In this document: positions 33,540-57,356 of the stretch, one piece after another
Layout of the letters: each line of letters starts with the position of its first letter
Numbering within the stretch: the first letter of the stretch is position 1
DNA from: Dasypus novemcinctus
Lineage: Eukaryota; Chordata; Mammalia; Cingulata; Dasypodidae
NCBI RefSeq assembly: GCF_030445035.2
Contig: NC_080695.1
Location: 51,105,954 to 51,169,953 of the forward strand
Direction: 5' to 3'
DNA: 64,000 nt
The notes under the pieces: generated by a model
Databases searched by the model: none
Told to the model about the DNA's origin: nothing
The model's input: only the letters and a program-made list of their open reading frames with translations
Translations under genes and position numbers: made by a program

Positions 33540-36500
33540 ATTACTGTGGTAACAGAAGTAAATCTTGCCTTATTAGTAATTTCCTTAAGAGTGAACGGAT
33601 TAAATTCTCCAATCAAAAGGCAGAGACTGGCAGAATGGATAAATAAACATGACCCAACTGTATGCTGTTTACAAGAGATCCATCTTAGAACCATAGGTAC
33701 AAATAAGTTTGAAAGTGAAAGGATGGAAGAAATATTTCATGCAAATAGTCATCAAAAAGAGAAGGGGTGGCTATATTAATACCAAGACAAAGTTAAAAAT
33801 TGTTAAAAGAGATATTATATGACTATAAAAGGTTCACTTCAATAAGAAGTTTTAATAATTATAATAAATATACACCTAACAGTAGAGTGCCAAAATACAT
33901 GAAGCCAACACTGACAGAATTGAAGAAAGAAATAGACAGTGGTACAATAATATATGAAGATTTCAATGCACTACTTTCAACACTGTGTAGAACACCTAAA
34001 TGGAAGATCAATAAGGAAGTAGAGGACCTAACAACACTATAAACCAACTATATCTACCCTACATACAGTACACTTCACCCAATAATAATGGAATACTCAT
34101 TCTTTTCAAGGGCACACAGGTCATTCTCCAGGATAGACCCTGTTCTAGGGCTCAAGAGAAGTCCAAACAAATTTTAAATATTGAAACTATAAAAAAGAAA
34201 CCTCTCTGACCACAATGCAATAAAATTAGAAATCAATAATAGAAGGAAAACTGCAAAAATTTCAAATATGTGGAAATTAAACCGCACACTCTTAAAATAA
34301 TCATGGGTTTAAAAAATTTCAAGATTTAGAAAATAAAAAAACAAAAACTCAAAATACCAAAACTTTGGGATGCAATAAAAGCAATACTCAGGGTGAATGT
34401 GTGGCTATTAATGTGTGTTTTAAAAAAGACAAAGATCTCAGATTAACAATCTTAATTTACATCTTGAGGAAATAGAAAAACAAGAGCAAAGTAAACAAGT
34501 ACAGGATCAAAATCCATCACCAGAAAAAAAAATTATAGACTACTTTTCCTTATGAATAGAGATGAAATATCCTTAAAAATACTAGCAAAACAAATCCAAA
34601 AGCATATTAAGTGGGAGTCATGCCAAGAATGCAATGCAAGTCTTGTTCAACATATAATAACCAATCATTTTAACACATTACATAAATAGAATGAAGGAAA
34701 AAAATCCACACAATTGTGGCAATAGTTGCTGAAAAATCATTCAACCAAATAAAGGAGAAGGAAATTTTTCAACATGATAAAGGCCATTTGTGAAAAAACT
34801 ACAACGAACATCATACTCGATAGTAAAAGACTGAAAACTTTCCCTCTAAGATAAGGAACAAGACAAGTATGCCCACTTGTCTTAATTCACCACTGTTCTT
34901 CCATAGTCTGTTAGAAGTTCTGGCCTGAGCAATTAGGCAAGAAAAAGAAGCTAAAAAATAAAATTGGAAGGTAGAAACAAAACTATCTCTATTTGCATAT
35001 GACATGATCTGATATTCCAAAGGAATCCACAAGACAACTACTAGAACTAATAAATGAATTCAGCAACATGCAAAAATTATGTCCCTAAACACTAGCAATG
35101 AATAATCTGAAAAGGAAAATAAGAAATTAATTCCCTTTATAATAATACCTAAACCTGGAGTTCTTAACCAGAGGTCCATGAGCTTGAATTGAAATTCAAA
35201 AAAAAAAACCATAATTCTTGTGGGGACATGTTGGTGTGGGTGTGATATTTTTATTCAATAATACACAGTATAGTATAGGTTTAGTAAGGGATCTATAGTT
35301 TTCACCTGACTGGCAAAGGGGTCCATGGAACAAAAAGTTTACAAACCCCTAATCTAAAAGAATATTATATCTAGGAATAAGTTTAACCAAGGACACTAAC
35401 AATTTGTATACTGAAAACTATAAATACTCCCAAATTAACAAGGACCCAATTAAATGGCAAGACATCCCATGGATTGGAGGAATTAACACATTGATAATGT
35501 GTCAATTGTTACCCAATGAAATACCTACTAAAATTCCAACAGCATTTTATGTAGAAATAGAAAAAGTGATCCTCAATTTATATGGAACTGCAAGAGACCT
35601 GGAATAGTCAAAACAGTCAAATAGTATGACAAAATGACAGTAATCAAAAAAGTATGGTAATGGTACAAAGATAGACAAATTAAATCAGTGAACAGAATTT
35701 AAGTCTGAAAGTAGACACATATATCTATCATAATTTGATTTTTGACAAGGATGCTAGATACATGTAGTGGGGAAAGAATATTATCTTCAACATACAGTAT
35801 GGGGAAATTTGGATATCCACATGCAGATGCCTGTAATTAGACCCCTACCTCACACCATTTAAAAAAATCAATTCAAACTGGATCAAAGACCTAAATATGA
35901 GGACTAAAACTATAAAACTCATAGAAGATAAATTAGATGCAAATCTTTATGAAATGGCATTTGGCAATGGATTCTTAGATACGATACCATAATGCACATG
36001 AAACAGAAGGAAAAATAGATAATGTGATTTCATCAAAGTTAAAAGCTTTTGCACATCAAAGGAAGTTATCAAGAAAGTGAAAAGACAACCTACAGAATGG
36101 GGGAAAATAATTGGAAACCATATATTGGATAAAGGCTTAATATCACAAAAATATATAGAATGGTTGCCATGCAATAACAAAAAGACAAACTGCAATTTAA
36201 AATGGGCAAAAGACTTGAATAGTTATTTATCCAAAGAGGATATATAAATGTCCAATAAACACAAGAAAAAATGCTCAAAATCATTAGCCTTTAGGAAAAT
36301 GCAAATTAAAATCAAAGTGAAGTGCCACTTGACACCATTTATTATTTTAAAAACTGAAAATAAGTGTTGGAGAGGATGCAGAGAAATTGGAATCCTGGTT
36401 CCTTGTTGGTGGGAATGTAAAATGTGCAACCACTGTAGAAAGCAATATGGTAGTTTCTCAAAAAGGTAAATATACACACAATCACCATTTGACCTGACAA

Positions 36501-36640
36501 TCCCACTTCTAGGTACTTTTAGTTATAAACACAAATAGAGTGAAAACAGGGTTGCAAATTTGTGCACCAGTGGTTTACAGCAGCATTAGTCACAATAGCC
36601 AAAGGCTGGAATCAACCCGAATCCATCAACAAATGAATGG
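33540..36640 (+). pseudogene. Degraded L1 ORF2 (endonuclease/reverse transcriptase) remnant
   Basis: The start is clear: 33546-33779 still reads VNGLNSPIKRQRLAEW and CCLQEIHLRT, the L1 endonuclease N-terminus with the conserved N and E residues. Mid regions (34560-35150) show the scrambled RT domain; 35880-36480 is the C-terminal part. The gene is shorter than an intact ORF2 (about 3.8 kb) because of deletions, is split by a hAT-like insertion at 35152-35360, and has many stops, so it is inactive. Confidence 0.75.
35152..35360. mobile_element. Small nonautonomous hAT-like DNA transposon
   Basis: About 210 bp with imperfect terminal inverted repeats: left ctggagttcttaaccagagg and tccatgag; right ggggtccatggaac and gtttacaaacccc. 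L1 ORF2 sequence is continuous on both sides (ataatacctaaa, then aaaagaatattatatctagg). The ends and length fit mammalian hAT miniature elements. The expected 8-bp target duplication is only partly visible (cctaaacc versus cctaatct). Confidence 0.55.
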
Positions 36641-37110
36641 ATAAACAAAATGTGGTACGTACATGCAAAAAAGGCCTGGGCCAGCCTTTCAGCCCGCCGC
36701 CACCGCCCGCCACTCTGGCCTCGAGCCCCACCTCCCCCGCACGCCACTGGCTCCCGGGACCCCGGCCGCTCGCCTGCCCACACGTCACCGGCACCTGCTC
36801 CGCCCTCGGGCCCACGGCGCGGCTCCCGCGCCACCGACGGCTCAGTCCGTGGACGGCGCCCTGCGGACCCCCGACCGCCACGCGCACCCCTGGTGCCAGG
36901 CCAACCGGCCCACGACTCTCCCGCAGCGACCCGCCTCAGGCGCGAGCGCCGGCGCCCCCTGCCGGCCGGCCCTGCCTCACCACCCCGCGCCCGGGCCAAG
37001 CACCTGCCACCACGCCCAGCCGGCGCCCCTGAGCCGGTACCGCCCCGGCCCAGGAGGCGGGGCCAACCCCAGTCCCGGCCTGCCGCCCACGCGCCCGCAC
37101 GCCCCCGGCC

Positions 37111-37150
37111 CCCCCCCACACACACACACACGCGCACACGCCCCCACCCC
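37111..37150. repeat. CA-rich simple repeat in the GC-rich block
   Basis: A poly(C) run leads into alternating CA and CG dinucleotides (cacacacacacacacgcgca), followed by a C-rich run. The alternating purine-pyrimidine tract is prone to length change. Confidence 0.9.
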
Positions 37151-38459
37151 GCACGCCTTAGCCCCGGAGCTCGGGCCCTGGGCCCTCGGCCATCGCAGCG
37201 GGTCCTCGCATCCAGAACTCGCGCTCCCGGCCACGCGCAGGGCTCTGCCCTCGGCACTCGGGGCCGCCCCCAGGAGCCACGCCCACCCGGAGGGCGGGGG
37301 TCGCCCCGCACGCCGCCCGGCCTTGACGCCACACAGCCGCGCCCTGCGCGGGAGCGGCCGCTCTCCTTTGGAGCGTCGGCCACCAGCCGGCGTCGGATGC
37401 GGGCGGCCGCGCTGGCTGCAAACGCCGACCGCGGGGCCAGGCGGAAAGCGGCAGGTGGCCGGATCGGGGCCAGGCTGTCCGCAGGCCTGCGCAGCTGGGG
37501 CCAGAGCAGAGGCCCTTGCACCTGGCACCGGGGGCTGCCCAGCCGCAGCGGGAGGCCCCGAGGCGCACGCAGCGGAAGCGCCCCCGGGCCGCGGCGGTGG
37601 GCGTGGCCTCGGTGCCCGCGCACCTGCGCCTGGGCCCTGCCGGGCTGCCGTGGGCACTGGCCTCTCCTCGCAGAGGCCCTGGGCCGCAGAGCTGGGGCCC
37701 CGGCCCCCTGCCTTGCCACCCCGAGCCCCTCCAGGCGTCCCGGCCGCAGCCGGCCTAGGCCTCGCTGTCGCCAGCGCCTGCTGACGGCGGAGCTCGCCCA
37801 GCTCCTGCAGATGCGCCTGGCGGGAGGCGAGGGCGACACGGCCGCCCGCTCGGCCAGACCTTCCAGAAGGCGCCTGGGTGCTTGCCGCCGGCGGGAGGGA
37901 CACTTGCAACCCGCGCCGCGCGCCCCGTGGGGGAGATCCCCTCGGGAGGCCGCTTCCTTCAGGTCTCCCGCTAGCGAGACCCGGCCTCCGCACACCTGCC
38001 CGCCGCCAGTGACACTCTGGACCGCGGGGCCTCGGTCTCCCAGCCGCGAGCCCAACTGGACGCGGAGCCGGGCTGCCAGGACCAGCGCCTCTGCTCGCCA
38101 TGCCCTCGTGTGCCCTCGTGCCCCGAGCACAGATCCCGGCCCACGGGCCAGGCCCCGGGCTGCTGCTGGGGCCAGAGGGGCACGGGCCAGAGGCCTCGCG
38201 GGCAGCGGACCGGCGGGTGTCCTCCGGGCAGGGCAGGGAGCTCTGGCCCGAGCGGGCCCGGGAGGCGGGTGCTGGTGCTTGGGCTGGACCAGGTGGGGAA
38301 GGCACCGGCCCGGGACCCGGGCTCAGCCAGGTGGGTCCCGGGATCAGCCAGGTGGCCCCCGGTCTGCCTCCGCCGCCGCCGGCGGTGTGTCCAGGCACCT
38401 TGGGCTCTGAATGCCGCCAGCCCCTTGCGGGAGGAGCGATGGGCCGCGGGCACACGTGC

Positions 38460-38495
38460 CGGTGTGCGTGCGTGCGTGCGCCTGTGTGTCTGCTT
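38460..38495. repeat. GTGC/TGCG simple repeat in the GC-rich block
   Basis: gtgtgcgtgcgtgcgtgcgc followed by ctgtgtgtctgc: alternating purine-pyrimidine sequence of the kind that can adopt Z-DNA. Confidence 0.85.
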
Positions 38496-38937
38496 CGCGG
38501 GCTCCGGACCGTGTCCCGTTGGTCGGCACAGGGGTACCGACCGCACTGGCTGAGGGAGAGCGCCGCCCGCTTTCCCGCTGCCCGAGGGGCCAGGGGATGT
38601 GGGTGGTTGGTTAGGTGGGGCCTGTCTCCTGGGCTCAGGGGGCCACGGGAAGTCTGTGGCATGGGGCCCATGGGCGTGGTGCCAAAGCAAGGCGGGGAAA
38701 GGCGAGAAGGGGCAGGCCCTGTGTGCACGGTTACAGGGCATGGGCCGGAGGAAGGGCCGGCCGGACGCCGACAGGTCTAGCGGTCCTGGGTTCTTGGGCC
38801 CAGGCGCAGTGGGCGCGGGCCCCCGCGGTCCCCAGCCACATGTGGGTTGGTGCGGGACTGCGAGCTCCAAGGAAGGGCTGGGTGGCCGCCGCCTGCGTGG
38901 CTGCCTGCGTGGCTGCGCCGCCAGGGAAGGGCGCGCG

Positions 38938-38990
38938 CGGGTTGGGGTTGGGGCCGGGGGCCGGGGGCCGGGGCCGGGGCCGGGGGCCTG
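38938..38990 (+). repeat. G-run cluster with quadruplex-forming pattern
   Basis: At least eight runs of four or five G separated by CC or TT (ggggttggggccgggggcc and repeats). This lies 90-140 bp beyond the 3' end of the 5S sequence. Confidence 0.85.
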
Positions 38991-39074
38991 CATACCTGGC
39001 GCTGAGGGCGGCGGGAAGCCGGGCTCGGGGCTAGCAAAAGGAGGGCGAGCGAGAGGGAGGGGACGGCGCGTGGC

Positions 39075-39078
39075 AAAA
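39075..39078 (-). terminator. TTTT pol III terminator of the 5S sequence
   Basis: The minus strand reads GGCTTTTGCC at the 3' end of the 5S match; four T residues are the minimal mammalian RNA polymerase III stop. Confidence 0.6.
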
Positions 39079-39195
39079 GCCAGAGCACCGGGTATTCCCA
39101 GGCGGTCTCCCATGCAAGCACTAAGCAGGCCCGACCCTGCTTAGCTTCCAAGATCAGAGGAGATGGGGCGCGTTCAGGGTGGTATGGCCGTCGAC
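39076..39195 (-). rRNA. 5S ribosomal RNA sequence, probable pseudogene
   Basis: The minus strand matches mammalian 5S rRNA from end to end (120 nt against 121), starting GTCGACGGCCATACCACCCT. Against the near-invariant human 5S as I know it, there are 9 substitutions (positions 4, 31, 37, 46, 71, 77, 82, 106, 113) and one deleted A near 115. Box A (39133-39147, AAGCTAAGCAGGGTC) is unchanged; box C (39098-39115) has one change; the intermediate element has one. Because functional 5S barely varies among mammals, this divergence points to a pseudogene, though the promoter is well kept and transcription is conceivable. In ribosomes 5S RNA binds uL18 and uL5 in the large subunit. It is embedded in spacer-like DNA, unlike the usual A-tailed 5S retropseudogenes. 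Confidence 0.92.
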
Positions 39196-39215
39196 GCTGG
39201 CTGCTGCTGGTGGCA

Positions 39216-39227
39216 GCCTCAAGAGCC
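39216..39227 (-). promoter_or_regulatory. 5S gene D-box-like upstream promoter element
   Basis: The minus strand reads GGCTCTTGAGGC at -32 to -21 relative to the 5S start at 39195. The mammalian 5S D box is GGCTCTTGGGGC at this position, so only one base differs and the spacing is exact. A cDNA-like retrocopy would not carry it. Confidence 0.75.
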
Positions 39228-39360
39228 TGCTGCGCCCCAGCTGCGCTGCCAGCCGCCAGCCTTCCGCTCCCGCCCCAGTTATTACAGTATGCTCCGCTTG
39301 AAACATTTAGCAGTATTACACGGACTAGTAGAAAAAAAATTCTTAATTGATATATTTGTT

Positions 39361-39570
39361 GATGGAAAGCCATAGAAAAATGAAGTTATGAAATATTCTT
39401 TCCTACAGAAGAACCTTGAAAACATTATGTTCAGTGAAATAAGTAAGGCTCATGAGCACAAAAATTGTGTGGTATCACTGCCACATCATGTCTAAAAGTA
39501 ACAAATTCACAGAGATAGCAAGCAAATTACAGGTTACTGGGGAAGGGGGAGAGGGGCATATTGACAGGAG
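39361..39570 (+). mobile_element. Old L1, 3' UTR after the GC-rich insertion
   Basis: Resumes with tggaaagccatagaaaaatg and continues ccttgaaaacattatgttca, gtgaaataagtaaggc, aaattcacagagatagcaag, gttactggggaaggggga. These are consecutive blocks of L1M 3' termini. This is the continuation of the element ending at 36668. Confidence 0.8.
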
Positions 39571-39786
39571 AGAAAGGAAGGAGTATGTTTTAAATTTTTT
39601 TAATTTAAGAAAGAGTTTAAAAAAAGTGAGATTAATATTAATATTTTGTTTAATCCCATGTATGCAAAATAGTGTCCTCTCCATCTCTGATTAATATTGA
39701 ACATGTATTGAGAAATTTTAACTTCTCAATTTCATGTCATTGAACTTTCTTATGTATTTAGACTTACATTTTAATTCAAGCATTAA
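39571..39786. other. No recognised feature
   Basis: Short AT-rich interval between two L1 pieces, within which caagcattaacg (39777-39788) may be the left target duplication of the next element. Confidence 0.3.
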
Positions 39787-41116
39787 CGTTTTTTTCTTCT
39801 TTATTTTCTTTTTAAATGCTATATTAAAAAAATATGAGTTCCCCATATACCCCCACCCCCCCATCCACTCCTCCCACATCAACAACCTCTTCCATCATTG
39901 TGGCACATTCACTGCACCTGGTGAATCATTTTGGAGCACTGCTGCTCCACATGGAAAGTAGTCTCCATTGTAGTCTACACTCTCCCCCAGTCCACCCAGT
40001 GGGCCATGACAGGACACACAATGTCCAGCATCTGCCCCTACAGCACCACCCAGGACAACTCCAAATCCTGAAAATGCCCCCACATCATATCTCTTCTTGT
40101 CTCTCCCTACCATCAGCAGCTACTGTGGCCACTTTCTCCACATCAATACTACAATTTCTTCCCTTACTAATCACAATAGTTCCCCAGCAGAACACCATTA
40201 AGTCCACTCTAATCCATACTCTATTTCTCCATCCTGTGGACCCTGGGATGGTTATGTTCAGTCCCCCTCTACATCAAGAGTGGGCTTAGATTCCACATGG
40301 ATGATGGATGCAATTCTCCTGCTTGCAGTTGTAGGCACTCTTGGTTCCCTGCTGTGGTGGTTGACCTTCTTCACCTCCCTGTTAGCTGGCCAGGGTAAGC
40401 CCAATAAACCAGAGGGTAGGAGTTGCAAGTCTGCTGAAGTTCAGGGCCTGGCTGTCACATGGACAGTCCAGAGATTCAGGTGTCCTGAGTATACACCAAC
40501 CCAAACGCCAACCACAGGTCTGGTAAAAGTCACAGAAGACGCATGTGTAGAAAGTTCATATCTGAGTCCAACTCCATCACACTCAGGAACACAAACTCCA
40601 AAGTAGGACCAACTGACATGGCACCGAACTCCAGAGCCATCTGCCATGACCACAGAACCTGTAGGTCTCTGTAGGCCTCAACCAGTACCTGGGTTTCTAT
40701 CTACTTTGGCTGTCTCTGGTACCCTGCTGAGGCATGCATAAGCATTACCCCTCTGATGACTTCCTGACTCTTTTTTGGAGATTCACAGTCATATAAACTC
40801 ATTTGCCCTTTCCATTTCCCCCTTTTATCCAAAGTCAAAAAGCAGTTTTTAACACCTGATCTTAATGAAGGCTGAGATATTCTGCTGTTCTGAGTTGACC
40901 CTTTTATTCAAGGTCCTTTTCTAGTTACGTCATCAGCTGATGCTTGGTAGTAATCCCTCGGGACCAGGGAGGCTCATCCCCTGGAGTCATGTCCCACCCT
41001 AGGGGAAAGGTAATGCATTTACATGCTGAATTTGGCTTAGAGAGTAGCCACATTTTGAGCAACATGGAGGCTCTCAGGAGGTAACTCTTAGGCACCCTGC
41101 AGTTATATAGTCCTGT
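39787..41116 (-). mobile_element. 5'-truncated young-type L1 3' UTR
   Basis: Parallel in order to 47.73-48.97 kb: aaaaaatatgagttccc, accacccaggacaactccaa, ggcttagattccacatggat, gtggtggttgac, agggaggctcatcccc, catgctgaatttggctt. The T-rich left end (39789-39812) is the A-tail; the element is cut at about 41116. A possible imperfect target duplication is caagcattaac on the left and caaagcaataaa on the right. It holds no ORF; frames of up to 151 codons are incidental. Confidence 0.75.
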
Positions 41117-47108: not shown

Positions 47109-47549
47109 TTATTCATCTTTGAAGATTTTAAACTCACCCTCATTTTTGAAGGACAGTAATTCTGGATAAAGATTTCTTGGCTGGCAGGTTTTCTCTTTCA
47201 GTACCTTAAATACATCATAGTACCTTCTTCTCACCTCCATGGTTTCTGATGAGACATAGGCACTTAGTCTTATTGAGCTTCCTTTGTATGTGATGCTTTG
47301 CTTCTCTCTTGCTGCTTTCAGAATTCTCTCTTTATCTCTAGTATTTGTTATTCTGAATAATATGTGTCTCAGTGCATGTCTATTTGAATTTTTTCTGTTT
47401 ACAGTATGTTTTCTTTCTTGGATATTGATATTTATATCTTTCATAAGGGTTGGAAAGTCTTTTGTCATTATTTCCTTAAATATTCTTCTTCCTGCTTCTT
47501 TCCTTTTTTCTTTCCTTCTGGGCCACCAATAATATCTATGCTTGTGCAT
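47109..47549 (-). pseudogene. L1 ORF1 C-terminal fragment
   Basis: 146 codons containing DKERILKAAREKQSITYKG and SSIRLSAYVSSETMEVRRR. These are the RRM and C-terminal domain of ORF1p, which form the nucleic-acid-binding half of the trimer. The coiled coil lies beyond the insertion point. Confidence 0.85.
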
Positions 47550-47717
47550 TTCATGTCATCATTCAATTTCCTGAGTTCCTGTTCAATTTTTTCCATTCAA
47601 TTTTCTATCTGTTCTGTCTTCTAAAGTTCAGATTTTCTCTTCTCAGATTCACTTATTCATTCTTCTACCACTTCAAATTGGCTGTTCTATGCCTCAGATA
47701 TATTTTTAACCTCATCC

Positions 47718-47727
47718 ATTGTGTCTT
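47718..47727. repeat. Target-site duplication of the 9.6-kb L1 (left copy)
   Basis: ttgtgtcttt, identical to 57357-57366. Both copies belong to the ORF1 sequence of the older host L1. Confidence 0.75.
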
Positions 47728-50463
47728 TTTATATTCATTTCTTTAAAAATATTACATTCAAAAAATATGAATTCCCATTCAACCCCACTGCCCCCACCCC
47801 CCACTCCCCCCACAGCAATACTCTTTCCCAACATCATGACACATCCATTGCATTTGGTAAGTACATCTCTGGGCATCGCTGCACCACATGGTCAATGGTC
47901 CACATCATAGCCCATACTCTCCCATGTTCCATCCAGTAGGGCCCTGGGGGGATCTACAATGTCCCGTTATTGTCCGTTAAGCACCACCCAGGACAACTCC
48001 AAGTCCGGAAAATGACTCCACATGTCATCTCTTCCTCCTATTCCCCGCACCCAGCAGCCACCATGGCCACTTTTCCCACATGAATGCCACATTTTCCCTG
48101 TGGTCATTGGAGTGGTTGTGTTCATTGCACTACTATGTCAAGAGGGGGCTTAGATTCCACATGGATACTGGATGCAATCCTCCTGCTTTCAGTTGTAAGC
48201 ACTCTAGGCTCCATGGTGTGGTGGTTGACATTCTTCAACTCCATGTTAGCTGAGTGGGGTAAATCCAATAAATCAGAGTGTAGGAGTTGAAGTCTGTTGA
48301 GGCTCAGGGCCTGGCTATCATATTGTCAGTCCAGAGATTCAAATCCCCTAGATATATCTTAAACCCCAGCACCAACTACAATTCCAATAAAGTAGCATGA
48401 AAGTCTTGTGAAAAGAGATCCCATCTGAACCCAGTTCCATCACACAGAAACACCAGCTCCAAAGAAGGGCCAACTGTCATGGCAGTGAACCCCATCTCCC
48501 ATGACCATAGAATCCGTGGGTCTCTTTAGCCCTCAAAAGAACCAATACATGGGGTTGTATCTACTTTATCTGTCTCTGAGACTCTGCTCAGGTGTGCATA
48601 AGGGCAATCCTTCTGACAACCTCCAGACTCTTTTTTATAGATTCATAGCCATATAAACTCATTTCTCCTTTCCATTTCCCCCTTACATTAGGTCAAACAG
48701 CATTTTAAAGTCCTGTTATTATATGTAGACAGGGACATTCTGCTGGTCCGCATTGAACCTTTAATTCAAGGTCATTTTCTAGTTGCATCATCAGCTGGTA
48801 TTTGGTAGTGATCCCTCGGTGCCAGGGAGGCTCATCCCCGGGTGTCATGTCCCACACTGTGGGGAATGCACTGCATCTACATGCTGAATTTGGCTTTGAG
48901 ACTGGCCACATTTTAGTAACATGAAGGCTGTCAGGAGGAAACTCCCAGGCACAGTGCTGCTCTAGGCCTTGTTCTTATTTCAGGTGTATAGGCTCACAAG
49001 CATAGTCATTAGTATCAGGGGCTCACTGTTGGACCCTCATTCCTTCCTGGTTCTTACCGTTGCACCTGGGGGACTGATGCTGCTCCCCTAGGGACCACGA
49101 CAGAGCAACCCCGGCCAGGAACCCAGTATCCCCCCCAGCTGTTGTTTTTAATTGTTTCCACTATGAGTATATCCAAACATTACCATGCACCCTGGACATA
49201 TGCCCTGTATAACTCCCTGTCAACCATATATCGCCTGTCCATATTCCTCCGCCACCTTTGTTGAACCACTCTGTGATCCAAAACTTCCTGAAAAGCGAAG
49301 CTCAGTATAATGTCAGGTTCCCTTACTAGTAAAATGGAATATAGCCATGAGTTTAAAGGTTAGATCTAGAATACGTATTGATTTGGAAAAATTCTGCATC
49401 CTATCTTTTTCTTTTCTTTTTTCCTAATTATTGAGCTTCTCTTCACAAGAGCCTTAGATCACAGTAATTCATATATACAATATACAGTACTCCCACACAT
49501 CCACACACCTTTTCCCTTCCACAGCGATAGTCTTATAACTTATTCATATCATATTTACTTAAACTGATGTACAGACTCTGAGACAATAGCTTTCAAACAA
49601 GGTGACATCTGTGCTTACATTGTGGTCCATACTTTAGGATATACAGTTTTCTAAATTTTTAGTTATCCTATGTTTTACATTATGGTTTACATTATTAGTC
49701 TGTCGTACCCTATATGTTTTTGGTGTAATATTACATGTTTTATATCCATCCTTGTGTACTCTCGTGAAACTCCTCTCTTACCCCCACATTTACCTTGGTT
49801 CCATCCATTCAACATCCATTTTCCCCTCCTCTTGGGGCCCACAGCGACAGCCAATCTCCATTTCCCGAGGAGCCACGTCCAGAGATACTTGCAACAGTGT
49901 TCAGGGCCTGACTTGCTCAACTGCCCTAATGCCCTGGGAGCCACCCTTTCTCTCAAGAGATACAGTTCCCTCTATTTGACGGCATTAGTCCTCCCCAGGA
50001 TGTGGGGCCACCCCCACTCTCACTACTTGTGTCTCTATCCAATGGTACAACCCACCCTGGCAAAATGAGCATTCAGACATTCCCCAGGAGTCCATCCCGC
50101 ATCAGACCATCCCCACTGAGCATCCTAAACAGGTAACCCTCCTAATTATATTTTGATACGATTTTCTCAGCATTTTACTCTCAACCAACACCTGACACTC
50201 TCCTATGTTCGTATGTTGCCCCTCCCTCCCCCCAATGTTTTGGGTAATATTACCCATCCGCCCCTCCCCAGCCCCCTCAACCACGCAAATCCCCACCCAA
50301 AGGCAACCCCTTGCCCCCATTTTATCTCTTCTTTGTGCTCATACTTACCGCCAGCTCATCATAGATTCCACCCCTGCAGACGTCGGCTCATATCCCTCCT
50401 CCACCCCCGATTTCCTGTAAGCCTATCTTCCAGTCTCTAGCTCTCTGAGGCAGCTTGCTTATT
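47728..50463 (-). other. Long 3' UTR of the younger L1
   Basis: 2.7 kb between the ORF2 stop and the left target duplication. No non-L1 ends or internal poly(T) boundary clearly splits it, although the T-rich run at 49405-49425 (tctttttcttttcttttttc) is a possible seam. The left 1.2 kb is parallel to 39.8-41.1 kb. Its 3' end (gaatgtaatatttttaaag on the minus strand) resembles standard L1 termini. Frames here of 60-132 codons have no L1 or other homology. Confidence 0.65.
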
Positions 50464-53400
50464 TCATATCATTGAGGTCATGTAGTATTTGTCCTTCAAT
50501 GCCTGGGTTGCTTCACTCAACATAAGGTTCTCAAGATTCATCCATGTTATCATGTGTGTTTGTAGTGTATTTGTTCTTACAGCCGAGTAGTATTCCATTG
50601 TATGTATATACCACATTTTATTGATCCACTCATCTGTTGATGGGCATTTGGGTTGATTCCAACTTTTGGCAATTGTGAACAATGCTGCTATGAACATTAG
50701 TGTACATATATCGGTTTGTGTCCTTGTTTTCAGTTCTGCTGGGTATAAACCCAGCAGTATTATTGCTGGGTCATATGGCAAATCTATGGTTAGTTTTTTG
50801 AGAAACTGCCAAACTGTCCTCCAGAATGGTTGGATCCTTCTGCATTCCCATCAGCAGTTCCCCTTTTTTCACATCCTCTCCAGCATTTGTATTCTTCTGT
50901 TTTTTTCATAGCTGCCAATCTTATGGGAGTAAGATGGTATCTCATTGTAGTTTTGATTTGCATTTCCCTGATAGCTAGAGATTTGGAGCATTTTTTTCAT
51001 GTGCTTTTTAGCCATTTGTATTTCTTCTCTGGAGAAGTGTCTGTTTAAATCTTTTTCCCATTTTTTTAAATGGGTTGTTTATCTTTTTATTTTCAAGATA
51101 TAGGAGTTCTTTATATATGCAAGTTATAAGTCTCTTATCAGATATATGGTTGCCAAATATTTTCTCCCATTGTGTGGGTTCCCTTTTTACTTTCTTGACA
51201 AACTCCTTTGAGGTGCAGAAGGCTTTAATTTTGAGGAAGTCCCATGTATCTATTTGTTCTTTTGCTGCTCGTGCTTTTGGTGTGATATTCATGAAGCCAT
51301 TTCCTATTACAAGATCCTGTAGATGTTTCCCTACACTGCTTTCCAAGGTCTTTATGGTCTTGGCTCTTATATTTAGGTCTTTGATCCATCTTGAGTTGAT
51401 CTTTGTATAACGTGTGAGATGGTAGTCCTCTTTCATTCTTCTACATATGGATATCCAGTTCTCCAGGCACCATTTGTTGAATAGGCCATTCTCTCCCAGT
51501 TGAGAGGGTTTGGTGGCTTTATCGAACATTATATGGCTATATATATGAGGTTCTATATCAGAACTTTCAATTCAATTCCATTGGTCTGTGTGCCTCTCCT
51601 TATGCCAATACCATGCTGTTTTCACTACTGTAGCTTTGTAGTATGTTTTGAAGTCAGGTAGTGTGATTCCTCCAATTTCGTTTTTCTTTTTCAATATGTC
51701 TTTGGCTATTCGGGGCCTCTTTCCTTTCCAAATAAATTTCATAGTTAGTTTTTCGAGTTCCTTAAAGAAGGCTGTGTTGATTTTTGTTGGGATTGCATTG
51801 AATGTGTAGATCAGCTTTGGTAGGATAGACATCTTAATAATATTTAGTCTTCCTATCCATGAACAGGGAATATTCTTCCATTTATTTAGGTCTTCTTTGA
51901 TTTCCTTGAAGAGTCTTGTATAGTTCCTGGTGTATAAGTTTTTCACATCTTTAGTTAAATTTATTCCTAAGTATTTGATTTTTTAATTTACTATTGTGAA
52001 TGGTATTTGTTTCTTGATTTCCTCCTGATCTTGCTCATTATTGGTGTACAGAAATGCTACTGATTTTTGCGCATTGATCTTATAACCTGTGAATTTACTA
52101 AACTCATTTATGAGTTCTAGAAGCTTTGTTGTAGACCTCTCAGGGTTTCCTATGTATAGGATCATGTCATCTGCAAATAATGAAATTTTGACTTCTTCCT
52201 TTCCAATTTGAATGCCTTTTATATCTGGTTCTTGCCTCAGTGCTCGAGCAAGTACTTCTAAGACAATGTTAAATAGAAGGGAAGACAATGGGCATCCTTG
52301 TCTTGTTCCTGACTTTAGAGGGAAGGATTTTAGGATTTCTCCATTGTCAACAATGTTGTCTGTAGGTTTTTCATATATACTCTTTATCATGTTCAAAAAA
52401 TTTCCTTGTTTTCCAATCTTTTGGAGTGTTTTTATTAAGAAAGTGTGCTGTATTTTGTCAAATGCTTTTTCTGCATCTATAGATATAATCAAGTGATTTT
52501 TTTCCTTCAATCTGTTTATATGGTGTAATACATTGATTGATTTTCTTATGTTGAACCATCCTTGCATACCCGGAATAAATCCCACTTGGTTGTGGTGTAT
52601 AATTCGTTCAATGTGCTGTTGAATACGATTAGCAAGTATTTTGTTAAGTATTTTTGCATCTAGGTTCATTAGAGAAATTGGTCTGTAGTTTTTCTTTCTT
52701 CGTTGTCTTTGTTTGGCTTTGGTACTAGGGTAATGTTGGCATCATAGAAGGAGTTAGGCAATGTTCCTTCTGTTTCGATTTTTTGGAAGAGTTTCAGCAG
52801 GATTGGTGTTAGTTCTTTCTGGAATGTTTTGTAGAATTCACCTGTGAAGCCGTCTGGCCCTGGGCTCTTCTTAGTTGGGAGGTTTTTAATGACAGATTCT
52901 ATCTCTTTACTTGTTATTGGTTTGTTGAGATCATCAATTTCTTCTTTGATCTATATGGGCTGCTTATGTGTTTCTAGGAATTTGTCCATTTCCTCTGAAT
53001 TGTCATTTTTGTTGGAATAGTTTTTCAATGTATCCTCTTATGATAGACTTTATTTCAGTGGGGTCAGTGGTGATATCTCCTTTCTCATTTCTTAGTTTGT
53101 GTATTTGCTTCATCTCTCTTTTTTCTTTGTTAGTCTCGCTAAAGGTTTCTCAATTTTGTTGATCTTCTCAAAAAACCAGCTCTTGGTCTTGTTTATCTTT
53201 TCAAGTGCTTTCTTATTTTCTATTTCATTTAGTTCCGCTCTTATCTTTGTTATTTCCTTCCTTCTTCTTCCTGTTGGATTACTTTGTTGTTTTTTTTCTA
53301 ATTCCTTCAAAGGTGCAGTTAGTTCTTCAATTTTTGCTTTCTTCTTTTTTGATATATGAATTTATGGCTATAAATTTCCCTCTCAGTACTGCTTTTCCTG

Positions 53401-54268
53401 CGTCCCATAAATTTTGGTATGTTGTGTTATCATTAACATTTGTTTCAAGGTTGTGATTGATTTCTTTTGAGATTTCCTCTTTGACCCACTGTTTTTCTAA
53501 GAGTGTGCTGTTTAATTTCCAAATCGTGGTGTGAAATCTGGGCCTCTGTCCCTTGCAAATTTCCAGCTTCACTCCACTGTGGTCAGAGATATTCTTTTGT
53601 ATGATTTCAATCTTTCTGAAATCATTAAGCCTTTCTTTGTGGCCTCGCATATGGTCTATTTTGGAGAATGATCCATGTGTGCTTGAGAAAAATGTATATC
53701 CTGCTGTGTTTGGGTGTAATGATCTATATATGTCTATTAGATTCAGCTCCTCTAATATACTGTTCAAAGGTTTTCTTTCCTTAGTGATTCTCTTTTGAGA
53801 TGTTCTGTCAAGAGTTGATAGTGGTGTATTAAAATCCCCCACTATAATTGTAGATGCATCTATTCTTTCTCTTAGTTTTTCCAGCATTTGCCTCATGTAT
53901 TTAGAGGCGCCCTTGTTAGGAGCATAAATATTTATGATTGTTTGATCTTCTTGACTGATTGTCCCTTTCACTAAAATGTAGTATCCTTCTTTGTTTCTCA
54001 CAATTGTTTTTCATTTAAAGTCTATTTTGTCTGATATTAACATAGCTACTCCTGCCTTTTTTTGGTTATTGTTTGCTTGTATGATTGTTTTCCAGCCATT
54101 CATTTTCAACCTCCATGAGTCTCTGGGTCTAAGATGTGTCTCTTGTAGACATCATATAGATGGGTCATATTTCCTTATCCAATGTCTCAGTCTGAATCTT
54201 TTGATAGGTGAGTTTAATCTGTTGACATTCAGAGTTATTACTTTCAAGGAATTATTTGTGTTAGCCAT
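50464..54268 (-). pseudogene. L1 ORF2 (endonuclease-reverse transcriptase), disabled
   Basis: About 1268 codons from ATG at 54268 to TGA-equivalent end at 50464, close to a full-length ORF2. Endonuclease: LNVNRLNSPIKRF, QETHLRPR and [11 protein letters not shown] (the SDH motif) are visible. [31 protein letters not shown] and FADD at 52166-52177 are intact. C-terminus: KWYI-like WYIHTMEYYSA. It has nonsense codons at 54152, 54011, 51983 and 51572, and frameshifts near 53340, 53100 and 51020. The protein would nick DNA at T-rich sites and copy L1 or SINE RNA. It cannot be made whole from this copy. Confidence 0.9.
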
Positions 54269-54341
54269 ATTTTGATTGGAGTTGTGTTTGTCATATTTTG
54301 TTTGCTTTTTTTTCCTTCTTTTTTTGTCTTTTTTGTTGCTC

Positions 54342-55313
54342 TTACACTCTCCTCCAACTCTGCCTGTCCTGTTTTTTCCTTTCTTCCTGCAGAACTCCCT
54401 TTAGAATTTCTTGAAGGGGAGGTTTCTTGTTGGCATACTCTTTCAGTTTCTGTTTATCTGTGAATATTTTGAACTCTCCATCATTTTTGAATGCTAGTTT
54501 AGCTGGATAGAGTATTCTTGGTTGGAAATATTTTTCCTTTAGTACCTTGACTATATCATACCACTGCCTTCTTGCCTCCATGGTTTCACATGAGAAATCA
54601 GCACTTAATCTTATGGAGCTTCCCCTGTATGTGATGTTTTTCTTTTCCCTTGCTGCTTTTAGAATTTTCTCTTTGTCTTTAGCATTGGATAATTTGACAA
54701 GTATATGTCTTGGGGTGGGCCTGATGGGGTTTATGACAAGTGGGGTGCACTGTGCTTCTTAGATATGTACATCTGTCTCTTTCATTAGATTTGGGAAGTT
54801 TTCAGCTATTATTTCCTGCAACACTCCTTCTGACCCCTTTCCCTTCTCTTCTCCTTCTGGAATCCCTATAATACATATGTTTGAGCATTTTGCATTATCA
54901 TTCAGTTCCCTAAGTCCTAGCTGGATTTTTTCTATCTTTTTATTGACCAATTCTACTATCTGTTTGATTTCTGATGTACTGTCTTCCACATCAGTAATTC
55001 TCTGCTCTGCCTCTTCTAGTCTGCTGATGTTTGCTGCAAGTGTATTTTTGATTTCTTGAACTGTGGTGTTCATTCCCATCATATCTGTTATCTTTTTGCA
55101 TATGTCTGCAGTTTCCCTTCCAAGTGTTGTCTTCATGTTGTTAACCTCTTCCTTTACTTCATTAAATTTGTCGGTGATAAATGTTCTGAGATCTTTCATT
55201 ACTTGTGCGAACTTCTGCTCCCCTTCCTGATTTTTAGTTTCTTGATTGGATTCAGCCATGTTTTCCTGATTACTGGTTTGGTTTGTAGATTTTTGTTGCT
55301 GTGTGGTCATCAC
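54342..55313 (-). pseudogene. L1 ORF1 (RNA chaperone), one in-frame stop
   Basis: One continuous frame of 323 codons from ATG 55313 to 54342, interrupted only by TAA at 54759-54761. N-terminal half: Gln/Asn-rich start, then a coiled coil (about residues 50-130, ISRLEEAEQRITDVED). The C-terminal half has CNICIIGIPEGEEKG-like (reads CSNICIIGIPEGEEKGKG) and DKEKILKAAREK, with QRRQW-like ARRQWYDIVKVLKEK. The stop replaces a codon at the position usually read as Q in VQEAQ, so it is a CAA-to-TAA transition. Length and domain order are normal for ORF1p. It lies 73 bp upstream of ORF2, as in other L1s. Confidence 0.92.
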
Positions 55314-57356
55314 TTTATCTTGATGGGTTTAATCAGTTCCTTACCTTCTTTGTCTAATCTTGGAGATTAATTAGCTCTTGTTTTTGCGTAAGTGTTATAT
55401 CTTCTCTTTGTCACTTTGTTCTTATTTTAATTTCTTATTGCTGGTTGAGTTCACTTAAAAGGAAAGTATTAGGGCCGGGGAAAGGCAATTGTGTAAGCAA
55501 GGAAAAAATGCAAAGTAGTATTGGTGATAAATGTTAATAGAGCAACAATATGAGATCTGGGAGGATGGATGTTAGATTCATGTAAGTTGTGTAGAGTTAT
55601 AGCAGTAGGTAGAGTACCTATAATGAGGTAGTCAACTGAATATGGGAGGAATATGGTATGAATTAAAAAGCTATTGTTTTCGTGAGAGAGGGAAAGAGAA
55701 AAGAAAGGCAATAGTTTCAAGAGTGGATAACAGACAGAAAACAAAACAAAGGTATTAGAAATTAAGAGTTAGACACTTTGTGGATCAAATAAAGGGAGGT
55801 GGAATATTGGAGAGACAGTAGATGATGGAGGCTATCAAGATGTAGGCGAAAGGAGATAGTGTAGGTAGCCAAATGTATTCAAACAGAAATGAGGCAGTGG
55901 AGGATGAGGAAACCCAGCAAATGTGCGGTGTTCCCTGTAGCACCTATTGTATAGTTAAGATAATATAAAATAAGAAGAAATTGAGGGACGAGAGAGAGAG
56001 AAAAAAAAAGAGAAGAAAGGAAGAAAGAAAAAGGGGGGTGGATAAAGGGTGGGGAACAGGTAGGGAAAAGAAAAAAAAGATATACACCTACTACAACAGC
56101 CACAAGAATAACAATTAAAAAAAAAAGCCCTAAAAACTGAAAAAAAAAAAAGAATTTGGGGGATACGCTGGGAGAAAAGACTACGGGATAATGCAATGTT
56201 AGCAATCAGGATATTAAAAATAAATAAAAAATAAAATAGAATAAAAATAAAAACAAAACAAAACAAAAAAGAAAAAATGCAAAAATTGAGGGCTAGGAAA
56301 TTCAAGGACCTCAGATGACCTCAGGCCATGATGGATTCAGGGATGGAAAGTCTGAGATATTGAAGACTCAAGAGGTGTGAGTCTCTGGGGTTTGGGCCAC
56401 CAGGGTTTAGGGGACTCAGACCTGGCAACCTCAAGTCCGGTTAGCAGGGAGCCTGGGAGCACTGCAGTGCATCACAGCCTTCAGGGATCCCTGCAGCTGG
56501 GTGCCAGGCCTATGGGTGAGGTCACATCCACAACCTCTATCCTGTATGCCTGTACCCCACAATTCACTCACTCACTGGGGTCTATTCTGTGGATGTATCA
56601 CCAGTTCAACTTCAGGACCTCTCCCACCCTGTGATCCCCTGGAATGGTCACCTGGGGGCGCCTCTACACTGCAGCCAACTTAATGATGCAGATCAATAGC
56701 CAGGCCTGGGGGTGGGGCCCCAGCCGGAAACGCTAATAACAGAGTCCAAACCCAAAATTCCCACGCTTTGCAAAATATTCCCCTAATCGGCTTCCAAATG
56801 TCTCCCACCCTGCCAGACCCTGGTGGAATCTCTTTATTGCTATCAATTTAAGTCCACTGTAGATCAGCAGCCTAACTTGTGGTGGGGGCTGGGCTCTAGG
56901 CGGAAGCGCTATTGTTTGTGTCGGCAATCAAAAATTCCCCCACTTCGCAATAAAACTCCCGTTTGTCTCCCCAAATCGGTCTGCAAGTGCCTCCTGCCCT
57001 ATTAACCTCCCAATAGGCCGCTCAGGGCAATAGGCCGCTCAGTACTGCAGAGCCTCCAAAAAAAAAAAAGAAAAAAGAAAAAATGCCACGGTGGCTCATG
57101 GCGCTGCGGCTCCACCCACCTTAGGAGGCAGCGTTCCGCGCACAGCCCGGACTTCCTTGTAAAGAGTCTCAATTATATTTTATAGACATATTTTCTCTGT
57201 TACCTTCCCACCAAATCGATGTCCAGACACCTCCTGTCCTGCAAAAATCCTGGAACAGCCTGGTCCCGAAGAACCTCCAACGCTGCCCAGTCACTTCTTT
57301 GCAGGAGATATTATCAGGTAAGCTCACTCAGCCACCATCTTGCCCCCCTCCCCTCT
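55314..57356 (-). promoter_or_regulatory. 5' UTR of the younger L1
   Basis: About 2.0 kb, ending (5' end on the minus strand) at gccaccatcttgcccccctc, the RC of the usual GGGGGGCAAGATGGTGGC start. The distal part (56300-57300) is more GC-rich with a few CpG, as expected of an L1 internal pol II promoter; the proximal part (55970-56280) is a purine-rich and A-rich tract. Frames of 60-116 codons here are not proteins. Confidence 0.75.

Follow-up and report, generated by a model that had tools for sequence, protein, structure and literature searches.

Orphons are dispersed members of tandem gene families, reportedly described by Childs et al. in 1981, and processed 5S retropseudogenes are a known class of mammalian 5S copies. 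The locus described here from the armadillo Dasypus novemcinctus is an orphon of the tandem 5S gene array, and an unusually readable one: as in the orphons, it is a unit of a tandem family placed outside its array, with the difference that here the whole unit is present with its spacer, that its two ends meet in the array, and that empty sites and 11 filled copies are found besides. It is also, like the processed retropseudogenes, a decayed copy of the 5S outside the array, but it carries the D box and the spacer, its limits are not those of the RNA, and it has neither a target-site duplication nor a 3' A-rich tail. In human cells, 5S rDNA circles whose sizes are multiples of the unit, along with a faint spot the size of a monomer, are reported in the accessible part of the work of Cohen et al. 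2010 (PMC3225859), where the integration of circles is also proposed as a possible source of orphons; as far as that part goes, the object there is the circles, while here it is an integrated unit-length copy known from its sequence. This escape of tandem genes by circle excision and reintegration, as proposed in that part of the source (PMC3225859), is hard to read from sequence. With the array, a tandem intermediate, and filled and empty sites all in one genome, the break points and the repair signature become readable, and the order of events becomes thereby testable in related species. Orphons and 5S circles are, of course, already known; what is new is the case of a whole unit together with its array, its likely donor, its empty sites, its end-joining junctions, and its later amplification in a single genome. 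No account of this locus was found among the matches listed in a search with partial coverage of the literature on armadillo or 5S rDNA.

The window, by which we mean the whole stretch of 64,000 nucleotides analysed, is C37:51105954-51169953 of an assembly searched over 3.61 Gb in 546 contigs (C30, C37, C43, and the like denote contigs, and L016, L049, and the like denote loci fetched for comparison). A first-pass annotation had described in it a GC- and CpG-rich block with one 5S sequence, which is indeed present: GC is 0.765 and CpG o/e 0.76 in the block, while outside it the window has 0.361 and 0.16, and a 5S rRNA pseudogene, placed by alignment and by Rfam RF00001 (77.3 bits, gathering 38), is matched on the minus strand from 39195 to 39077. 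The inserted 5S rDNA unit, that is, the gene with its upstream flank and whole spacer, occupies positions 36673..39276 (2604 bp, on the minus strand, which is that of the 5S gene), with borders set by the empty sites L049-L054 and by the identical junctions of 11/11 filled copies. The annotation was right in taking the block for a real insert, while the span of 36669-39360 that it gave proved too wide on comparison with the empty sites. On the gene strand, the upstream side of the spacer (39228..39276, by array alignment) precedes the D box GGCTCTTGAGGC (39216..39227, positions -32 to -21), then the pseudogene (39077..39195), its TTTT terminator (39075..39078, AAAA on the plus strand), and the CpG-rich downstream side of the intergenic spacer (36673..39076, by composition and array alignment). 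Around the 5S, the insert includes 81 bp of the unit on the upstream side and about 2.4 kb on the downstream side. Four extra A, missing at the empty sites, stand at the left junction (36669..36672). The left flank (35774..36668, plus strand) is a 3' part of an L1 that at the empty sites runs on into the right flank, and the right flank (39277..40164, plus strand), which is kept at the empty sites, begins with about 90 bp of older non-L1 sequence, after which come the 3' part of the L1 and what lies past it. Judged against the other L1 copies that the window contains, the flanks are two parts of one L1. They had been thought to be adjacent but for the insert, and as the empty sites show, some 100 bp of other sequence lay between them before the insert arrived. 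This short non-L1 stretch within the L1 (39277-39366) is also found on C42, C2, and C27 and is perhaps an old unnamed repeat; the matches on C2 and C27 cover only this stretch plus little beyond.

It is on C43 that the genuine 5S array is found, spanning C43:33183403-33310992. In the 5S gene search, in which 40 of 257 candidates were scored and the counts are lower bounds, the 40 matches listed fell on C43 (at least 31), on C37 (at least 6), and on C30, C6, and C5 (at least one each), and at least 25 of these 40 were matches of the full query at 100%, all of them in the array. The mammalian 5S reference was in this way matched at 100% in the genome's own array. Consecutive array genes among those listed are 2799-2877 bp apart in 29/30 gaps; the remaining gap, of 45.6 kb (C43:33248547-33293990), gave no match in either the gene search or a search with a pattern over the 5S start and its upstream flank. 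Allowing at most 3 mismatches, this pattern occurs 68 times genome-wide (29 times in the C43 array, 38 on C37, and once on C46), and its reversed control not at all. The composition of the array resembles that of the block, with a GC of 0.79 and a CpG o/e of 0.79-0.80 in three loci.

In 20/20 array loci, the alignment with the block runs through from one end to the other (BLAST pieces over 500 bp, 81-90% identity), so the similarity of the block's spacer to array units, which had been predicted, extends along the whole length. The D box, already noted with its correct spacing, has the same letters and the same place in 18/20 array loci, the exceptions being L035, with a one-base deletion, and L041, with one letter changed. 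We have a gene together with its non-transcribed flank outside a tandem array that exists elsewhere in the same genome. The ends of the block are also neighbours in the array, as had been anticipated for a single-unit circle: the BLAST ends lie 44-106 bp apart in 20/20 array loci, 9 of which give 44 bp, the order in the array being the spacer of 39228..39276, then a short missing piece, and then 36673. By joint alignment with the b joints on C37 described below, the insert lacks about 24 bp of the unit, and the unit of the C37 d locus measures 2625 bp (2/2 loci measured) vs. 2604 bp for the insert. The insert ends thus adjoin in a tandem donor, as would be expected of a unit-length circle. Together, the spacer alignment, the neighbouring ends, and the empty sites strongly support the earlier proposal of a transfer at the DNA level of a whole unit with its spacer, and we consider it highly probable that the block is a DNA-level insertion of one whole 5S unit.

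The right-flank sequence from 39277 onward was found without the block in five places on C37 and in one on C42 (19/19 candidates scored), and these six empty sites attest to arrival by insertion. In them, the left flank, up to 36668, and the right one, from 39277 on, have only 13 bp between them, TTAAGCTTATAAT, of which one letter differs in L052, and the flanks are 92-96% identical to those of the window. The window has AAAA plus the unit in place of this 13-bp piece of target, and neither a target-site duplication nor a poly-A tail was found at the insert junctions vs. the empty sites. Because 13 bp were lost and AAAA was gained, with no duplication and no tail, we read the event as end joining of DNA and not as retroposition. 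An inverted L1 repeat at the junctions (36622-36648 / 39340-39366), reached by 1/1000 shuffles, was considered as a repair scar and dropped, being already present at the empty sites. The block is not a single-copy feature; there are 11 filled sites, and they share one insertion, as shown by junctions identical in 11/11 and by the separation of filled and empty clades in the tree of joined flanks with the C42 copy as outgroup (0.99 and 1.00). Single-flank trees gave 0.95 and 1.00 for the left flank and 0.42 and 0.99 for the right one, and mean flank identity is 99.3% among filled copies, 99.2% among empty ones, and 95.3% between them.

On C37, each amplicon contains three 5S-derived sites: a, which is the window block, b, and c/d. 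In the numbering of the block, site b is 1942-2607 joined to 7-1671, about 0.9 of a unit, site c is 1271-2607 joined to 47-1678, and site d contains more than two units. Since c and d share their flanks, they are one site with differing numbers of units, about one unit apart, and in the pairs compared the flanks of b and c/d are unrelated. There are 16 copies of site a on C37 (11 filled and 5 empty); a b-type match lies about 40-44 kb from 16/16 of them (13 by block search and 3 by the joint pattern only) and a c/d-type match about 63-71 kb from 12/16 (one by pattern only). Site b stands beside filled and empty a copies alike, and c/d beside 3/5 of the empty ones, and because both also stand beside empty a sites we read b and c/d as older than a. 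Eight of the 11 filled copies form four inverted pairs about 77-78 kb apart, and the sites a, b, and c of the window copy recur in mirror image on the other side of a point near 51.18 Mb; in the pair 51142622(+) / 51219819(-), the blocks differ by 0.12% and the flanks by 0%, so inverted arms are nearly identical, as in a palindromic amplicon. Over the 55 pairs of filled copies, block divergence is 2.19% vs. 0.66% in the flanks, and in L019 (C37:41796000-41802000) the left end of b runs into the right end and flank of c, as expected from a deletion between the 5S blocks of b and c. The excess of block over flank divergence, together with this b/c hybrid, supports exchange among the 5S blocks. 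At a larger scale, at least 16 copies of site a, 8 of them in palindrome pairs, are spread with their neighbours over the 10 Mb of C37:41.8-52 Mb. The palindromic ampliconic regions described in the accessible parts of PMC3723533 and PMC11168930 likewise have inverted near-identical copies and signs of conversion, but C37 is not where Xist_exon4 lies and shows no TSPY-like cluster among the matches listed. We considered C37 as the X and dropped this, given that Xist_exon4 lies on C47, and a TSPY-like cluster, a sign of Y linkage, was also discarded for C37, with 1 of the 52 NAP family matches listed (144 of 176 candidates scored). Between the empty copy on C42 (L054, C42:4894300-4896200) and each of the 16 C37 copies, identity is about 94%, and it is possible that this C42 copy represents the progenitor of the amplicon.

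Regarding the state of the gene, the window 5S differs from the mammalian 5S by 9 substitutions and 1 deletion in the alignment and so lacks the coding sequence identity of a functional gene, and the Rfam alignment flags non-standard pairs in it, mostly in the end helix. The fetched C37 copies readable over positions 7-122 show 6 to 15 changes each, and none is intact. The A box of the window copy is unchanged, one change falls in what we take to be the intermediate element and one in what we take to be the C box, and the TTTT stop that had been noted downstream is in place. Taking as reference what we assume to be the human D box, a D-box-like match of equal quality within 3 bp of the expected place arose in 24/100000 shuffles. 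The window 5S is best read, as far as sequence can tell, as a pseudogene, a decayed type-1 Pol III gene and probably not a ribosomal one. Read on the gene strand, six of its 9 substitutions replace G by C, and of the 251 differences between the block and the array locus L029, 78 are C/G exchanges.

The first-pass annotation had named the 5S array as the source of the unit; 5S mutations in common with other C37 copies, and likewise the loss of about 38 bp, point instead to the C37 tandem. The immediate donor would quite probably be this older 5S-derived tandem (c/d), about 65 kb off on C37, and we infer that this tandem derived in turn from array-type units. All distinct fetched C37 5S copies that extend over position 77 are changed there (26/26, with 25 A77G and 1 A77C), and the window 5S has T4G, G31C, C46T, G71C, G82C, G106C, G113C, and A115del in common with the b copies L016 and L028. 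The deletion of about 38 bp is common to 11/11 a units, 3/3 middle d units, and 3/4 c loci and is missing from 20/20 array loci, 3/3 outer d units, and 1/4 c loci, and the insert, with its 2604 bp, is closer to the C37 unit (2625) than to the array units (2799-2877). All this speaks against the unit having come straight from the functional C43 array, with its likeness to C37 acquired by later gene conversion from sites b and c/d, which we regard as somewhat unlikely, if with several points in its favour. In the stretch q1680-2000, largely missing from b, the distances (5/11 a copies) are nearly star-like, with 0.075 for a-array, 0.069 for a-d, and 0.102 for a-c; C14G is present in 17/18 fetched b, c, and d copies covering the site and in 0/10 a copies; and the signs of exchange among blocks, both the block vs. 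flank divergence of the 55 pairs and the L019 hybrid, would accommodate such conversion. Some b copies are also without G31C, G82C, or G106C, which the window copy carries, so a b-like or d-like ancestor requires exchange or an early split, and it is because of C14G that we do not rate the local donor any higher. The a copies do not form a clade in the left-half trees, as expected if blocks exchange sequence. The split of C37 vs. array units (UFboot 95-100), seen in the six region trees with array rows, a seventh having none, was set aside as donor evidence: it only reflects the likeness of the array units among themselves, and the position of the root is not given.

As for the route from this C37 tandem, we propose that a piece of the 5S array of more than two units would have reached C37 earlier, at site c/d, where its units would then have mutated; that one unit would have left this tandem as a unit-length circle via recombination of neighbouring units; that the circle would have been opened in the spacer and end-joined as double-stranded DNA into a double-strand break in the L1, some 65 kb away; and that segmental duplication, partly as palindromes, would have multiplied the locus, with gene conversion presumably still mixing the 5S blocks. 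We favour the unit-length circle with moderate confidence as the most likely route of transfer. Ends that meet in the repeat fit a circle and also a pair of cuts made at the same point of neighbouring units, so a linear unit-length piece, released by such breaks and end-joined without any circle, is a lesser but real possibility. It would produce identical ends, and the joint is common to neighbouring units, but it requires two coincident breaks, and by a rough estimate a random linear piece would come this near to the unit length about 1% of the time; neither is the inverted repeat at the joint notably stable as a hairpin, an idea of break point that we abandoned after finding it no stabler than shuffles in 3/3 sequences (z 0.41, 0.31, 0.43). 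Retroposition of a read-through transcript, sense or antisense, could appeal to the eight-A run near the right junction (39331-39338) and the six A at the left one, but an A7-A8 run already stands at the same place in the empty sites and hence is no tail, the 13 bp of target were lost rather than duplicated, and the insert contains the promoter flank and full spacer with ends that are not RNA ends, all of which makes it hardly conceivable. Only slightly more credit, and still very little, is due to an assembly chimera. Tandem repeats often cause misassembly, but here eleven places with identical junctions in both orientations, along with six empty places, appear to largely meet this objection, and among the pairs compared the flanks differ by up to 1.2% and the blocks by up to 3.8%. 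A different question is whether the C37 5S blocks are working units, kept as CpG islands or as Pol III units that serve the amplicon in some way. The block has kept 231/309 array CpGs vs. 353/405 GpCs with its CpG o/e of 0.76, an old 5S copy on C46 lies in CpG-poor sequence, the A box (at what we take to be its position) is unchanged, and the D box is as in the array; but no readable fetched C37 copy is intact over positions 7-122, the 5S part has diverged about as much as the spacer, no Pfam family was found for any of the 10 window ORFs tried out of 47, and GC-biased conversion could equally keep CpG, so we hold working units to be improbable. Low germline methylation or GC-biased conversion would explain the retained CpGs, and since these persist although block and array have come to differ by roughly 10%, either explanation can be put to the test here. 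Beyond the single transfer by a unit-length circle that we prefer, it is a rather doubtful idea that the C37 5S blocks might constitute a local self-seeding family, in which c/d would shed unit circles repeatedly, these would re-enter within tens of kilobases (b, a), and the GC-rich, CpG-retaining blocks would drive conversion, deletion (L019), and perhaps the growth of the palindromic amplicon.

Some further observations concern the 5S copies and the window in general. Transcripts of 5S pseudogenes can activate RIG-I, according to the accessible part of PMC10498592, and on this account it is fair to ask whether copies whose A box and D box are unchanged are transcribed. An exact 25-base mammalian 5S pattern had 0 matches in IMG/VR and 0 in GTDB contigs. 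On C46 (C46:46202163, L057 around 2557-2713), there is another 5S copy made at the DNA level, much older and accompanied by its upstream flank, of which only about 160 bp are alignable and whose surroundings have 0-3 CpG per 500 bp. In the window itself, the minus strand of 47109-55328 contains reading frames that resemble pieces of L1.
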